Below, one piece after another: positions 361 through 6,591 of a stretch of 6,710 bases of DNA. Made by a program: the position numbers and the translations under genes. Below the pieces are notes generated by a model that was not told the origin of the DNA, searched no databases, and worked only from the letters and a program-made list of their open reading frames with translations. Origin of the DNA: JBFLYE01 sp040756715 [NCBI: bacterium] (GTDB taxonomy: Bacteria > UBA9089 > UBA9088); NCBI GenBank assembly GCA_040756715.1, contig JBFLYE010000157.1:1-6710 (forward strand), in the 5' to 3' direction. How positions within the stretch are numbered: the stretch's first letter is position 1; each line of letters opens with the position of its first letter.

Positions 361-3300
361 ATGGGTAAAATGAGAAGATTTTTGGGAAAAATAAGGCTTG
401 AGGAGCTTGTTCTCTTTGTGCCACTTGTCTTAAGCATAAGCTTTATTCTCATAAAGTGCTTTTTGTTTGCCCAGCCAGTGGGCTGGGGGTATAAGGTAAA
501 GATAAGGATAAATAACCCAGGTCCAGCCAGGACAGATTATCCGGTGCGTATTGAGGTTCCTACCACGCCATATATAGATTCAGGAAGGATGAACTCTGAC
601 CTAGGGGATATAAGGTTCTACCAGGGAAGCAACAACCTTCCCTTCTGGATCTATCCCACTGAGGGGATGAACCGAAATTCGTATTCCTTGCCAGTCTATG
701 TAAGAATAAAAACACTGAATAGCGGAGACAATTTTATCTATATGTATTTTGATAAAAGCAAGGGTGCAGATTCTTCCCCTACCCCTCCCGGAGGGACCTC
801 CTACCTCTGTGAGGATTTAGGACCAAATGTTAATTGGAATACTTGTGCCCCTGCCTGTTTAGACCCAAACCGGCCAAGCAATTTTCCCTTTTCGGGAAAA
901 AGCGCAGGGGCTTCTGTCTTCTCTATCTTTGCCTTTGACCCAAGGGATACCGATACCTTTAATACCGATGGAACCGGCTGGATGACCACGGAAGCAAGAA
1001 GAATAAGCAAAACAAGGCTTTCCAATGCCTTTATCTTACATTTTGAAACCCACTTTTGTTTAGGCAATGAGGTTATGGCATATTTTCTTCTTCAGGGAAA
1101 TAATGCTTCACAACTAGACTCAACCAATGGCTATCGACTTTATATTGATTATGACACTAATGTTGAGGACAATTACCATTGGAGTAGGGGAAGGTATTAT
1201 CTAAGGCTATACCGAAGAACAACTGCTGCGGGATGGCAGGAAGTAACCAATTCTAATATGTACATCTACAACAACACAATCTGGCAGTGGGATATAAAGG
1301 TATCCACCAGCACAATTAGGGTTCTCTCAAATGGAAGCGAGGTTTTAGCTTATAATAGAGGAGGTGATGGTGGTGCTAACTTCAAGGGAGGCTATATTGG
1401 GTTTAAGAGGTATCCCATAACTGGGGCAGAATGTGGACAGAATACGACCGATGGCCTATCCCCGATTGCGGCAGTTGATCGATATAATGAGCATGAGCCA
1501 GAGGTTGAAATAATAGGAAACCCTGATTTAGAGGTAAAAAAGGTAAGGCCTAGCCCAGGAACTTCTTATCACGGAAGGAACATTATTGAATACCCGGCAG
1601 GAACACAGAGGGAAGATGGATATATCGATGGCGATACATTTGAGAAATACATTTACCGCGCATATAAGATGGCAGGAAAAAACCAGCAATTTGAATATTG
1701 GGTAAACATATGGAACAGGGGTAGTGCAGAAGATACATTTAATCTTAAAGTAGAGCCAAAAGGAGGGATGAAAGAATGGTTTATTGCCTATAAATATGGA
1801 AGTAATGAGTGGCAAGAAAACCTCCCTGGCATAGGCTCAAATACACTTGGCTCGATAACCATTTCGGGTGGTGGGTCCTGGGAGCTTGGAATTCTTGTCG
1901 TCCCAGCCGCCGATGTTTTATTTAAGGGAGGAAGGTTTGATTTTACCTTTATCGTGGAGGGAGGGATGGATATGTGCCTTGATACTTGTAGGTTTGTCTC
2001 CTATGTTAGGCCAAAGTTTAACTGCTATTGGAAGTATAAAATGCCCATTTTGATAAAGTATCAAGACACCTATGATACAGGAACCCTCACCGATTATCAG
2101 GTTCTTATAAATATCCCCAAGAATAAGCTTGAAGGTGTAGGACCTACAGGCGCGGATATCCTTTTTAGCGACGAGGAGGGTGGCCTTATTCCCTTCTGGA
2201 TGAAGTCATTTGATTATAATAATAAAAAGGGCTCATTCTGGGTGAATGTTCCAAAGATAAAGGCAAATCCTATGATTCCAGGAAAAAGCCCCTTTGATTT
2301 TGCTGTGTTTTCCGACCTCTGCCAGTGCTATATTGGTGGGGGTGCTGGCCCTGTGGTCAACGATGGCTCTGTTCATTCAAATTCCTGTGCGATAATTAAT
2401 AATTGTGCTCATACGATAGTTGAATCAGGCTATATAAATGATTCAGAAAGAACCGGTTGTGGTGGTGATGATTGCCCTAATGGAAGTTCAAACCCAGCCT
2501 ATTCTGGCGATATCCCATTTCCCGAGCTAGACCTTGCTTATTATAGAAATTTGGCACAACAGCAGGAAAGATACTACACATCCTGCTCTGAAGTCTCTCT
2601 TCCTACTAATGGTGGGGTTACCATGGTAGAGGCATCAGGCTGCACAGTAAGCTTTTCAGGAAATCAAACGGGAAAGGGAAGCCTGATAATAATTGGAGCA
2701 AACCTTGAATTTAAAGGAAATGTTGACTTTAAAGGCCTTGTCTATGTATGGGGAGGGAATTTTTCAATGTCTGGGAATGCAAAGGTTACTGGACAGATAA
2801 TTGTAAGTGGACAGGTAGACATAAATGGAACAGATCGGGTCTATTATCAAAAGCAGTTTCCGGTATGCTCTAATTGCCCAGCAGGTCCACCTGCTCCCGC
2901 AGCAACCGCAACCACAACCATATATTGCTGGTGGGGAAATGTAGATTATCCTATCTCAAGGAGCAATATAAAGGAGACATTTGACCTCTGGGAGGATTGG
3001 GAGGAGAGAACCCTTAATGACCAGGTGGGTGATTGTCCAAATATTACATCCAGCTGTAGTCCAGATTCCGGGGGATGGCAAAATATCCCCACCCCAGCCA
3101 ATAACTATAACTGGTGGAAGATAAGGGATAATACGGGTGCAAATAGGGCAATTGACAAGAGGGTTATGATGGCAGATAAGGGTTCTACTTTTAAATCAAG
3201 CGATATTGGCCCATTTGTTACCGGAGGCGATATCAGGTGGAAGAACTATGAGGTTATTTATTCATCCTATGATGAATACAATAACTATGGCGGTGATGCA

Positions 3301-5901
3301 AACCGGGCAAACCCTCAATATAACCCGGTCTGCCATAGGGACCCTGGAAATACCTGGGGAATGGAGTTTTTTGCCACCCAAGGGGGTTTATTTATCTTCC
3401 GTCCCTTTGGTGATGGAAGGGATTGGACCTGGCAATATCAGTCTAATGCAGGAAAAATCCTTGGCGATTCTACATATCCGATGTTTAAGAAAAGATACTG
3501 GATAAAGGTAAGGCCATTCTATAATAATATTGATAAAAAGACATATCTTATGCTTCTGATTAGAAAAGAACCTGCGCCTGCTGATATAGATTCTGATAGC
3601 GGTTTTCTCCCTGTAACCGAGCGTTTTGACCAAATGCCCCCGGGGTTTATCGCACCAAGTGCCTATGCCGCACAAGGTGGAGCAATCGGCTTTGGTGGCT
3701 GGAATGGTGGCTTTTCTTATGACAATATCAGGGTTAGGAAATTTGTTTATCCTGAGCCAAGCTATGAAATAGGAGAGGGGGAAACATTGGCATATAAACC
3801 CATTAAGAGCCTATCATTTCCAAATTTAACCCCACCTTTGATGAATAACAGACCCTGCCTGGTTATAGGAACAATAGAGCCCTGGAAATGGTGGGGAAAC
3901 CTCTATAGCTATTATGGAGATTGCTATTTAGGCGGGGAGTGCGAAGAGGGTGAAAGCAGAGAGATCTTAGCCTCAATAAGCCTCTGGGGAGATACCCAAA
4001 CACAAGTATTAAAGGGCTTTGGCGACCATCTAAAGGAGGCGCAAGTAGGGGATAACAACCCATCATTTGCAGCTTTTCTTCCCCTGCCAGATAATGGGGG
4101 AGATTGGTGGAAAACACAGGGAAGGGTTATCTTTACGGCAAACACAAGCACCGACCAGGCCTTTATCCCCTTTGACATTTCAAACAAAAACCAATTTAAA
4201 CAATACCTGGGAGTTCCTGATCATGAAGTAGATGACCTGATAAGGTTTGTGCGGGGGAAATATATAAACAGGTATAAAAGATCAGAACTTAGGGTATATA
4301 ATAGATATATCCTTGGTTCAACTGCAGATACAAATCAATGGAAGTTGGGTGATATTATTCATTCCAATCCCTTAGCGGTTGGCCTACCGGTTTTATACTA
4401 TCCCGATCAAGAATACACAAAATTTAGCAAAGAGAATTCAACGAGAACCCTCGTGGTATACTTTGGCTCTAATGATGGAGTTTTCCATTGTGTCAGAATG
4501 GCAAAATGGACTAAAGGGGTAGTAACGGAAAGGGGGACATTTAGTATGTACACAAGCGATACCAGTGCGAGGGAACTCTGGTCATTCATTCCCAATGGGT
4601 TATTGGGAAAGCTTAAGGATACAACAGAAAAAGACCATAAATACACAGCCGATGGCTTATTGAGGGCAATTGATTTCTGGGATAATCAAGAGAAAAAATA
4701 CAAAACCCTCTTAGTCGGTGTTTTAAGGACAGGTGGGCAATCTATTTTTGCCATTGATATTACCGATCCATATTATCCAAAGCTCCTTTGGGAAAAGAAC
4801 AATCTTACCAATCCAGAAGAATTTGAAAGGATTGGAGAGACATTTTCTGCCCCTGCTTTAGGAATGCTGGAAGAGGGATTGGATAAAAATAACCGATGGG
4901 TGGGAATCTTTGGCTCTGGCTTACATCCAAATGGGATAAGGAATATCGCAGATAAATGTGCATACCTTACTGTGATAAACCTTAAAGATGGAAGCATTAT
5001 AAAGCAGATTAGGGTTTCCGAGAAGGTAGGTAATATCACCTCTGATCTATCCTGTATGAGGGGTAGAGATGGTGAATTAAAGAGGATATCCTTTGGTGAT
5101 TACTTTGGATGTGTCTTTAGAATAGACCTTCGCACCGAAGGCCTAGTCAGTTCATTTTTAAGCAAAGGAGAGCTTTCTGAGGGCTCTGATTTATTCTTCA
5201 AGCCCGCTGATTACAATAGCTCTAATCTCTGGACAGGAAGCCCTCCAGAAAGGCCTGTTCCCACTATGCCTGTATTTGGAAATGTAGATGTTTCTCAATT
5301 TCCTGCAGACTGGTGGTGTTGGCTATACTTTCCCACCGGTGATTATGATGTCTATGATGAAAATTATCCCCATCAAAGGGTCTATGCCTTAGATGAGAAA
5401 AAACCCCTTCCCTATAACGATATCATAGGCCTTACTAATATGACAGATTCTTCAAAATCAAATCCCAATAATAATAGCTACTATATTGAGCTTGGCCATG
5501 ATGATCCAAAGGATTATGCAACCACAGGTGCTACAAGCCCAAAGGATAGGAATGAACGGTGCATCTCTCCCGTAGAGGTCTTTAATTTTATCCTCTTCTT
5601 TACCACATTTACACCAAACTCTAATATATGTGAGGGTGGCCTTACCAGGTTCTATGCGGTTAGATTTACCTCAGGCGAGGTTTATCAAGACCTTATCGGG
5701 GCAGTGGCTGGAAAGGAAGATGTAAGGAGCGTTGCCTATCCCGATGTGGGTGTTCCATCTACAACCATGATCTATCCAGGAGGAGAAGCATCGGGACCAT
5801 CAGGTGGAATAATGAATACAGGCACAGGTGAGATAATGCAGGTTCCCCTATCCTCTATCTTTCCTCCCGTAGATATACGTTTATGGAGGGAAGTAAGATA
5901 G
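361..5901 (+). CDS. Giant PilY1/PilC-type pilus tip adhesin with DUF2341 domains
   Basis: This 1846-aa exported protein is probably a type IV pilus tip/adhesion factor. A basic N-terminus is followed by a hydrophobic stretch (about 16-37), with likely signal cleavage after LFA (37/38). Residues 42-139 match DUF2341 (WGYKVKIRINNPG, FIYMYF); about 180-386 look like a concanavalin/LamG-type fold; about 387-545 is an Ig-like, NEW3-like domain (PDLEVKK, WNRGSAEDTFNLKV). A second DUF2341 starts at 557, is broken after about 640, and resumes at 853 (TIYCWWGN, SRSNIKETFDLWEDWEE). It is followed by a second concanavalin-like region ending YDNIRVRKFVYPEP (1120-1133). From about 1165 to the end is a PilY1 propeller ending LWREVR. 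Family members are usually about 1000-1500 aa, often with a von Willebrand A domain near the N-terminus; I see none here. The PilY1 assignment is strong; the order of N-terminal modules is inferred from motifs only. No frameshift or internal stop is seen. Confidence 0.9.
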   Translation: MGKMRRFLGKIRLEELVLFVPLVLSISFILIKCFLFAQPVGWGYKVKIRINNPGPARTDYPVRIEVPTTPYIDSGRMNSDLGDIRFYQGSNNLPFWIYPTEGMNRNSYSLPVYVRIKTLNSGDNFIYMYFDKSKGADSSPTPPGGTSYLCEDLGPNVNWNTCAPACLDPNRPSNFPFSGKSAGASVFSIFAFDPRDTDTFNTDGTGWMTTEARRISKTRLSNAFILHFETHFCLGNEVMAYFLLQGNNASQLDSTNGYRLYIDYDTNVEDNYHWSRGRYYLRLYRRTTAAGWQEVTNSNMYIYNNTIWQWDIKVSTSTIRVLSNGSEVLAYNRGGDGGANFKGGYIGFKRYPITGAECGQNTTDGLSPIAAVDRYNEHEPEVEIIGNPDLEVKKVRPSPGTSYHGRNIIEYPAGTQREDGYIDGDTFEKYIYRAYKMAGKNQQFEYWVNIWNRGSAEDTFNLKVEPKGGMKEWFIAYKYGSNEWQENLPGIGSNTLGSITISGGGSWELGILVVPAADVLFKGGRFDFTFIVEGGMDMCLDTCRFVSYVRPKFNCYWKYKMPILIKYQDTYDTGTLTDYQVLINIPKNKLEGVGPTGADILFSDEEGGLIPFWMKSFDYNNKKGSFWVNVPKIKANPMIPGKSPFDFAVFSDLCQCYIGGGAGPVVNDGSVHSNSCAIINNCAHTIVESGYINDSERTGCGGDDCPNGSSNPAYSGDIPFPELDLAYYRNLAQQQERYYTSCSEVSLPTNGGVTMVEASGCTVSFSGNQTGKGSLIIIGANLEFKGNVDFKGLVYVWGGNFSMSGNAKVTGQIIVSGQVDINGTDRVYYQKQFPVCSNCPAGPPAPAATATTTIYCWWGNVDYPISRSNIKETFDLWEDWEERTLNDQVGDCPNITSSCSPDSGGWQNIPTPANNYNWWKIRDNTGANRAIDKRVMMADKGSTFKSSDIGPFVTGGDIRWKNYEVIYSSYDEYNNYGGDANRANPQYNPVCHRDPGNTWGMEFFATQGGLFIFRPFGDGRDWTWQYQSNAGKILGDSTYPMFKKRYWIKVRPFYNNIDKKTYLMLLIRKEPAPADIDSDSGFLPVTERFDQMPPGFIAPSAYAAQGGAIGFGGWNGGFSYDNIRVRKFVYPEPSYEIGEGETLAYKPIKSLSFPNLTPPLMNNRPCLVIGTIEPWKWWGNLYSYYGDCYLGGECEEGESREILASISLWGDTQTQVLKGFGDHLKEAQVGDNNPSFAAFLPLPDNGGDWWKTQGRVIFTANTSTDQAFIPFDISNKNQFKQYLGVPDHEVDDLIRFVRGKYINRYKRSELRVYNRYILGSTADTNQWKLGDIIHSNPLAVGLPVLYYPDQEYTKFSKENSTRTLVVYFGSNDGVFHCVRMAKWTKGVVTERGTFSMYTSDTSARELWSFIPNGLLGKLKDTTEKDHKYTADGLLRAIDFWDNQEKKYKTLLVGVLRTGGQSIFAIDITDPYYPKLLWEKNNLTNPEEFERIGETFSAPALGMLEEGLDKNNRWVGIFGSGLHPNGIRNIADKCAYLTVINLKDGSIIKQIRVSEKVGNITSDLSCMRGRDGELKRISFGDYFGCVFRIDLRTEGLVSSFLSKGELSEGSDLFFKPADYNSSNLWTGSPPERPVPTMPVFGNVDVSQFPADWWCWLYFPTGDYDVYDENYPHQRVYALDEKKPLPYNDIIGLTNMTDSSKSNPNNNSYYIELGHDDPKDYATTGATSPKDRNERCISPVEVFNFILFFTTFTPNSNICEGGLTRFYAVRFTSGEVYQDLIGAVAGKEDVRSVAYPDVGVPSTTMIYPGGEASGPSGGIMNTGTGEIMQVPLSSIFPPVDIRLWREVR
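2281..2904 (+). other. PilX-like, Cys-rich module nested inside the second DUF2341 domain
   Basis: Residues about 641-848 interrupt the second DUF2341 domain. The segment has hallmarks I associate with PilX-like minor pilin ectodomains: FDFAVFSD near its start, a GSVHSN motif (669-674), an IPFPELDLAYYRNLA helix-like stretch (718-732) followed by YYT, then beta-helix-like repeats (GSLIIIGANLEFKGNVDFKG, then LVYVWGGNFSMSGNAKVTGQ, then IIVSG). It holds ten cysteines, several closely paired (654/656, 676/682, 700/705, 836/839), suggesting disulfides. It ends in a Pro/Ala/Thr linker (841-853) before DUF2341 resumes. Boundaries are good to about 10-15 residues. Confidence 0.6.
3853..5898 (+). other. 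PilY1/PilC C-terminal beta-propeller domain
   Basis: Residues about 1165-1846 show PilY1 family signatures in the usual order: WWGNL (1177-1181), DDLIRFVRGKY, LGDIIHSNPLAVG (from 1329), VVYFGSNDGVFHC (1365-1377), ELWSFIPNGLL (from 1405), TLLVGVLRTGGQSIFAIDIT (from 1449) with DP after it, GIFGSG (1515-1520), FGDYFGCVFRIDL (1578-1590), LYFPTGDYDVYD, FNFILFFTTFTPNSNICEGG, and a terminal LWREVR. In PilY1 this domain forms a modified propeller that binds host or surface ligands and controls pilus retraction. The calcium loop that normally precedes the YxGDxxGNxxRFDL-type strand looks degenerate here. The domain appears complete to its usual end. Confidence 0.85.
5859..5893 (+). promoter_or_regulatory. 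Compound hairpin at the 3' end of the PilY1-like gene
   Basis: CTTTCCTCC (5859-5867) pairs with GGAGGGAAG (5885-5893) over 9 bp with one G-U pair. The loop contains a second small stem, CGTA-GATA-TACG (5868-5879). The structure ends 5 nt before the TAG stop (5899-5901). No T-run follows directly; the nearest is TTTT at 5905-5908, so it is a weak candidate for a terminator and might instead be a 3'-end stabiliser, or only a consequence of coding sequence. Confidence 0.25.
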
Positions 5902-6036: not shown

Positions 6037-6591
6037 ATGATTTATAATTCAAAATTCAAAATTCAAAATTCAAAATTTACCGGGTATACCCTATTAGAAA
6101 TTATGGTGGTTGTTTCTATACTGGGAATAGCCCTTGCTGTGATTACCCCAAATATGCTGGGAAGGGCCAGGAGGACAAGCCTGGAATCCTCCCTTTCAGC
6201 CTTAGCCGGTGATATGAAAAAGGCAAGGGCAGAGGCAATGTCTTTTGGAACAAGGACAGTCCTCCTGACCGTTGGCTCAGAAACCTCAGGACCAGAAGAC
6301 CTTGATCAGGATGGAAGAAAAGAGGAGCATTACATCTGCTTTATTGACAATGATCGAAATGGAGCATTTACCCTTAATGTTGATCAGGTTTTATACAAGA
6401 AGAACTGGGGTAATGTTGAGGTAGGAATAAATACCCTATCGCCGATTATCTTTCTTCCCCAGGGAACCATAGTTCCTAATGGACAAGCGCCACGGGCTTT
6501 AAATATAAAATTTCCTAACTACAAGTCTGAATATTCCCTTGAGCTTTTATCAATCCTTGGAATGACAAGGATTGTAAGAATAAGATTATGA
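6037..6591 (+). CDS. GspH/FimT-type minor (pseudo)pilin precursor
   Basis: This 184-aa prepilin has a type IV leader, cleaved by prepilin peptidase after Gly16. Mature protein starts YTLLEIMVVVSILGIALAVI, with the conserved Glu at +5 (E21) and Tyr in place of the usual Phe at +1. The rest fits GspH/FimT: SALAGDMKKARAEAMSFGTR, a CFIDNDRNGAF motif (101-111), and a C-terminal GMTRIVRIRL strand. Length is typical of the family. After cleavage it would sit in the inner membrane and enter the tip of a type IV pilus or type II pseudopilus; the PilY1-type neighbour favours a pilus priming complex (FimT/FimU role). DLDQDG (88-93) may be a metal-binding loop. ATG 6037 is the only ATG before the cleavage site (the in-frame stop TAA is at 6010), yet it has no Shine-Dalgarno, and residues 4-14 of the leader come from a heptamer repeat. 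The TGA stop overlaps the downstream 35-bp repeat. Further minor pilin genes probably lie beyond the window. Confidence 0.88.
   Translation: MIYNSKFKIQNSKFTGYTLLEIMVVVSILGIALAVITPNMLGRARRTSLESSLSALAGDMKKARAEAMSFGTRTVLLTVGSETSGPEDLDQDGRKEEHYICFIDNDRNGAFTLNVDQVLYKKNWGNVEVGINTLSPIIFLPQGTIVPNGQAPRALNIKFPNYKSEYSLELLSILGMTRIVRIRL
6047..6078 (+). repeat. (ATTCAAA)4 heptamer tandem repeat inside the pilin leader
   Basis: Four perfect ATTCAAA units (6047-6074) plus a partial ATTT lie at codons 4-14 of the pilin gene, encoding the NSKFKIQNSKF stretch. A 7-nt unit is not a multiple of 3, so gain or loss of one unit shifts the frame. The repeat itself stays open in all three frames, since each frame cycles through the same seven codons. 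It is the reverse complement of the TTTGAAT-type repeats at 5904-5937, 6585-6619 and 6640-6674. Confidence 0.9.

Follow-up and report, generated by a model that had tools for sequence, protein, structure and literature searches.

The window, the stretch of DNA analysed here, is the whole of contig C157 (6710 bases) of source genome G000, whose assembly comprises 1.55 Mb in 218 contigs with a completeness judged to be 96%. It holds an open reading frame (positions 361-5901, on the forward strand, as are all features of its product given below) that encodes a PilY1-type protein of 1846 amino acids with a hydrophobic leader at residues ~1-38, and which matches the Pfam families T4P_PilY1 (E 7.1e-22) and, in two stretches, DUF2341 (E 1.1e-15). 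The C-terminal PilY1 beta-propeller (PF05567) is recognised at residues 1329-1591 (4345-5133) with 78.3 bits against a cut-off of 28.1, which places the protein in that family, and no other PilY1 match was detected in G000 at E <= 0.01. The first DUF2341 domain, matched at residues 80-139 (598-777; profile 1-59, E 0.0019), reaches 19.0 bits when scored alone, under the Pfam cut-off of 23.4, while the second is the subject of this report. The ~400 residues that separate the second domain from the propeller (window 2998-4200) yield no Pfam match at E <= 0.01 and are well conserved in the homologues from genomes G010 and G115.

On its 3' side, the pilY1 gene is adjoined by a GspH/FimT-type pilin gene (6037-6591, forward strand), 32% identical to the gene in the equivalent position of G010. 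On the other side lies the end of an upstream gene (3-338), which carries a FlgD/Por_Secre-type tail. This tail is repeated within G000, with DNA that is 91-95% identical in contigs C12, C58, C204, and C88, 84-86% identical in C21 and C52, and weaker copies elsewhere; since the copies are found mostly at or near contig ends, the tail probably breaks the assembly. A search with the window protein in a collection of genome contigs found no relatives, and the pilY1 gene may have arrived by transfer. The PilY1 of G001, a genome of the same genus, is of a different type, encoded beside minor pilins, in which Pfam recognises the propeller only. From a DNSDS motif, we presume this protein to be VWA-like.

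The second DUF2341 domain is interrupted, as the first-pass annotation had claimed from the letters of the sequence. Its N-terminal half (residues 555-636; 2023-2268) matches profile positions 2-41 of 84, and the match stops at residue 636. After profile position ~41 there follows an insert of ~210 residues (residues 637-850, with edges placed to within about 5 residues; 2269-2910), before the domain resumes with its C-terminal half (residues 851-880; 2911-3000), which begins TTTIYCWWGN, contains the motif TIYCWWGN at residues 853-860 where the annotation had placed it, and is delimited by homologue alignment and by the profile match of the joined halves. The comparison of homologues that the annotation had called for provides a natural empty site, since the insert is absent from both of the PilY1 homologues that span it: in place of the 218 residues of the window protein (634-851), the protein of G010, a genome of the same phylum but another family (53% identity over window residues 850-1846), has 7, and that of G115, which belongs to another phylum and whose protein is 43% identical to that of G010, has 5. 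In these two proteins the DUF2341 match is unbroken (profile 1-78 with 48.5 bits in G010; profile 1-76 with 49.9 bits in G115). When window residues 541-635 and 851-900 are joined, they yield one near-full-length DUF2341 (PF10102) match, covering profile positions 2-77 of 84 with 51.4 bits (cut-off 23.4), as compared to 36.6 bits for the first half alone and no match for the second. In G009, G138, and G153, whose matches to this DUF2341 stretch are more distant, a gap of the size of the insert is likewise absent. Relatives of the G115 protein at E <= 1e-20 occur in 4 of 290 genomes, G115 included, and the other three match in the propeller part only. The insert-free homologues and the joined-halves match thus confirm, at the level of sequence, an in-frame nested insertion that is not a product of chance, and indicate that the two flanks would form a single DUF2341 sandwich.

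The insert carries a DFAVFSD motif near its start (residues 646-652; 2296-2316), with counterparts in G003 (DFAIYTE) and in contig C138 of the source genome (SFALFSD) and similarly placed motifs in several PilX-like pilins, and a GSVHSN motif (residues 669-674; 2365-2382) that is identical in the G003 copy. When residues 633-860 alone were searched against Pfam, as had been suggested, a DUF7305 match did appear, but it is weak, and all matches remain under their cut-offs: the best is Bactofilin (PF04519; E 0.0083, 16.8 bits against a cut-off of 27.9), followed by DUF7305 (PF23981; E 0.022, 15.1 bits for the insert alone and 19.7 bits for the G003 copy, against 27) and DUF2572 (E 0.06). PilX_N (PF14341) has no match at E <= 1 in either the window protein or the insert, DUF3494 does not figure among the Pfam hits at that threshold, and PHROGs and NCBIfam returned nothing useful for it. 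Within window 2281-2910, ten cysteines are found in 210 residues, versus 22 in the 1598 residues elsewhere in the protein (Fisher p 0.0023), while the G003 copy, which is 45% identical, has none in 216 residues; this difference suggests that the cysteines may brace the insert by disulfides in its PilY1 setting. Third-position GC in the insert is 0.324, below that of the rest of the gene (mean 0.392, sd 0.026 over 82 overlapping windows outside the insert), and overall GC is similar for insert and remainder, at 0.441 and 0.425.

Structure prediction with AlphaFold2 was informative for part of the insert. For residues 541-1147, modelled from a two-row alignment, the mean pLDDT was 36, and only model residues 183-281 (~723-821, within the insert) exceeded 50; both DUF2341 halves and the first third of the insert are of low confidence in the AlphaFold2 models. 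The two runs performed, each on a two-row alignment, agree over the confident part (residues 723-822; 2527-2826), where a helix at residues 725-734 is predicted to be followed by a parallel beta-solenoid that extends to ~822, and in the insert-only model this block attains pLDDT values of 78-95 over residues 727-806. Foldseek comparison of the insert model with the PDB and with viral structures gave nothing at E <= 0.001. Upon re-alignment of 53 PDB chains, the best 16 (rmsd 2.9-3.3 over 110-115 residues) were solenoids of ice-binding proteins, including mutants of a single protein, with Z scores of 6.9-7.7 that, being under 8, may reflect a common arrangement; the next chain scored 5.4. Neither bactofilins nor ComZ, the pilin discussed below, are among the PDB matches listed for the model, and the insert profile found no relative among PDB sequences, ComZ included.

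The distribution of the module links it to pilins of the PilX type. A profile made of two rows was searched in 386 genomes at E <= 0.001 and matched 22, two of which are the genomes from which the profile was made. The remaining 20 contribute one locus each, and inspection of all 20 revealed PilX-like proteins at 18 (319-506 residues once trimmed for alignment), a longer PilX-like protein that also matches Kelch and DUF7305 at one (L045, G017), and a FapA protein at another (L046). A strongly hydrophobic N-terminal stretch is present in all 18 pilins (in L038 the stretch that precedes the signature begins at residue 173), an AEAG-like signature in 15, and a W-x-E end in 17; at E <= 0.01, ten of them match PilX_N, four DUF7305, and two Bactofilin, while the Pfam family pAdhesive_15 matches one of the 18 and, in two long PilX-like proteins, the region of the solenoid. 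Searched against the PDB, the alignment of these pilins matches ComZ of Thermus, their nearest solved relative, with E 1.1e-5; the matched region comprises the pilin part together with the beginning of the solenoid. A direct comparison of the insert with the pilin alignment gives E 2.5e-15, a value that is not independent because the pilins had been gathered with the insert. A pilin gathered instead by its N-terminus (L086) matches the insert at E 6.4e-4, with six control stretches at 0.07-0.45, but the FapA solenoid does better still (E 5e-5), and the insert profile, when run against 690 ORFs (111 loci), matched no pilin recruited by its N-terminus alone, retrieving, besides the recruited pilins, FapA and two ORFs that adjoin recruited pilins (E 0.0059 and 0.0067). 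The FapA match and the weak score of L086 imply that triangular solenoids in general account for part of the signal.

The first-pass annotation had envisaged a PilX-like ectodomain nested within DUF2341. The resemblance to the solenoids of PilX-like pilins stands, being borne out at 18 of the 20 loci, and strands and spacing in the DUF7305-type solenoids match those of the insert. The notion of a whole ectodomain, however, does not hold, since the pilin helix, the sheet, and the W-x-E end strand are all missing from the insert. Given that the pilins match ComZ, itself a pilin with a solenoid in its sheet, the insert would correspond to the pilin solenoid, and what the two have in common appears to be a DUF7305-type beta-solenoid and not the pilin fold.

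The closest relative found lies in a protein of another kind: it is a stretch, 45% identical over 208 columns, of a 2189-residue secreted CARDB/PKD protein encoded by G003, a genome of the same order (L017; record JASEHO010000004.1). There the homologous module has CARDB and PKD repeats on its N-terminal side and, on its C-terminal side, a CarboxypepD_reg domain and a FlgD/Por-type tail. It carries the same motifs as the insert, but is located outside DUF2341 and is free of cysteines. This record was also the only one retrieved when the insert alignment was searched against the genome contigs collection, and none was found among viral contigs. In the source genome itself, a partial copy of the module starts at the very end of contig C138, within a frame (L052, G000:C138) of 2627 residues that is cut by both contig ends and that holds repeated right-handed beta-helix regions, a clostripain-type C11 peptidase domain, and PKD domains. 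The missing part of this copy was found on no other contig of G000. Contig C157, which starts with a FlgD/Por-type tail, may be the neighbour of C138, but this tail recurs at many contig ends and so does not single out a partner. The proteins of G003 and C138 are secreted and are devoid of pilus domains and of DUF2341, so that within the lineage the module is carried by surface proteins of more than one kind. A possible divergent copy, with GKVHSN, precedes the tail of a 1432-residue C10 protein, but in direct comparison it matches the insert profile weakly (E 0.0035).

Published work bears on what such an insert could do. In models of the tip complex, PilX joins PilY1 by beta-strand complementation and the N-terminal domain of PilY1 occupies the outermost tip (PMC13190605, PMC7541494), and pilins and PilY1 have been described as sharing effector modules through a common tinkering strategy, with 68 PilY1 architectures (PMC8179133). 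In RTX adhesins, the emergence of a ligand-binding domain from a split beta-sandwich carrier is a recognised pattern (PMC12077191), although the proteins, the secretion route, and the split domain are unrelated to those considered here. The tip models, the RTX pattern, and the modules shared by pilins and PilY1 lead us to regard the insert as an additional binding head at the tip. On this view, a PilY1-type pilus-tip protein would have gained, by in-frame insertion into a loop of its second DUF2341 domain, a self-contained beta-solenoid module of the type present in PilX-like minor pilins and in large secreted proteins of the lineage; the interrupted domain would act as a split carrier, its fold completed around the insert and the solenoid projected outward, where it would most likely bind an external ligand (a surface, a glycan, or DNA) and endow the pilus with a further binding head. 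We place moderate confidence in this reading of the insert as a mobile, probably ligand-binding solenoid displayed on a split DUF2341 domain. The tip position of the window protein is suggested by PilY1 biology, and binding is the most likely role of the insert, by analogy.

The nearest parallel is ComZ of Thermus thermophilus (PDB 6QVI), a DNA-binding type IV pilin proposed to reside at the tip, in which a beta-solenoid is inserted in the pilin sheet (PMC6561018). By its sequence, the window protein would resemble ComZ in having a solenoid set within another domain of a type IV pilus component for which a tip location is proposed, and the ice-binding protein 4NU2, to which the ComZ solenoid has been compared (PMC6561018), likewise ranks with the best matches obtained for the insert model. 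The insert is modelled as a helix plus a solenoid, its nesting in DUF2341 being apparent from sequence and the carrier having been modelled at low confidence. The carriers differ, a pilin in ComZ versus the DUF2341 domain of PilY1 here, as do the sizes of the solenoids (about 380 versus about 210 residues), and DNA binding has been demonstrated for ComZ only, with which the insert profile has no sequence match. ComZ thus makes DNA one candidate ligand; G000 encodes ComEC, but so do 10 of 14 control genomes. The label of pAdhesive_15 ('putative ice-binding-like adhesive domain') is a further hint as to the ligand.

Other explanations of the insert must be weighed. The fact that Bactofilin is its best Pfam match, that the FapA solenoid also matches it, and that its enrichment in cysteines suggests bracing could indicate a bactofilin-like, polymer-forming solenoid that would connect PilY1 molecules with one another or make the tip more rigid, and that recognises no external ligand. 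This is unlikely in our view: the Bactofilin score falls well short of the family cut-off, the best-ranked folds among the matches listed are ice-binding proteins with an added helix and not bactofilins, and the cysteines are missing from the G003 copy. Still less probable, and by our estimate very improbable, is that the break reflects an assembly artefact or a neutral insertion. The insert-bearing PilY1 architecture was encountered in a single genome, G000, among the 386 searched with the insert profile, and thus in one assembly of 218 contigs, and the lower third-position GC of the insert could be taken to point in the same direction; but the single open frame, the clean edges within a domain, the similar overall GC, and the motifs retained at 45% identity to G003 all speak against it, and at the DNA level the C138 copy and the insert do not match significantly, so that no known near-identical repeat lies behind a possible chimera.

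A third alternative concerns PilX itself. The first-pass annotation had put forward that a fused copy could replace a separate minor pilin or mimic its contact surface, and a related possibility is that a PilX head was transferred to PilY1 as the insert and would there perform the contact or receptor function of a PilX that has lost its own head in this lineage. Genomes G000-G004 have, by pilin profile, only short PilX-like genes (open frames of 148-164 residues), those of G001-G003 directly precede a PilY1 gene, and the G115 locus, with its related PilY1, has the order PilY1-FimT-PilV-PilW, with no adjoining pilX. Genes of this short type, of ~120-150 residues and with no solenoid head, were located at L081:3561-4010, L082:3776-4219, L019:1677-2123, L018:1720-2154, and L083:808-1167. 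Yet G000 retains its short gene alongside the insert, which leaves replacement unsupported, and the PilX-like gene of G010 is again a short one only (121 residues) although its PilY1 is insert-free, as is that of G115; the insert is therefore not needed to offset a headless PilX. Mimicry of the PilX contact is likewise disfavoured, since published models of that contact employ beta-strand complementation (PMC13190605) and the closest copies of the module are found off the pilus, in secreted proteins and not in pilins. Moreover, the insert has no pilin helix, and the short genes match PilX_N below its cut-off or not at all: among six of their products tested, three match PilX_N at E 0.00024-0.003 and three give no match, and the cut-off of that family is passed by such genes in none of 10 genomes. 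We thus consider it doubtful that the insert has taken over the role of PilX, and equally doubtful is the broader form of the idea, in which a PilX/ComZ-type receptor head was moved between tip-complex partners, leaving the lineage with a headless PilX and an outward solenoid, perhaps meeting DNA, carried by PilY1 within DUF2341. Such a move between partners is possible in this lineage but not favoured; if it did occur, DUF2341 would serve as a split carrier on which tip receptors can be exchanged.

With the insert taken as an additional binding head, the case can be set against what is known of PilY1 diversity. The N-terminal regions of PilY1 proteins vary greatly and for the most part have no assigned domain, and a comparison from 2026, covering fifteen PilY1/PilC proteins from the literature, names only VWA and DUF4114 as conserved N-terminal domains (PMC13190605); the present protein adds one module, with relatives in both minor pilins and secreted proteins. 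The sharing of modules with pilins also holds for the modular PilC/PilY1 proteins of PMC8179133, which, in the available text, are described as fused, with nesting unmentioned, and DUF2341 occurs in proposed tip proteins of archaeal type IV pili (PMC4858521), where the accessible text likewise makes no mention of a nested solenoid. Searches of the open-licence literature retrieved no description of a PilY1 with a nested solenoid and no relevant paper on the G003 isolate, DUF7305 did not surface in searches on DUF2341/DUF7305, and a search for PilY1 with a domain insertion returned the ComZ paper only. The principle of modules shared by pilins and PilY1 is known, while the nesting of this module in PilY1 appears to be new, and extends the idea of one module pool for both partners to insertion within another module. 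The natural pairs with and without the insert at one site render its role in tip binding testable by simple deletion. In the same phylum, PilX-like proteins that combine a Kelch beta-propeller with a DUF7305 solenoid (L086:6536-9307 in G014; L045/L053 in G017) mirror this arrangement, in that a propeller protein carries a solenoid.
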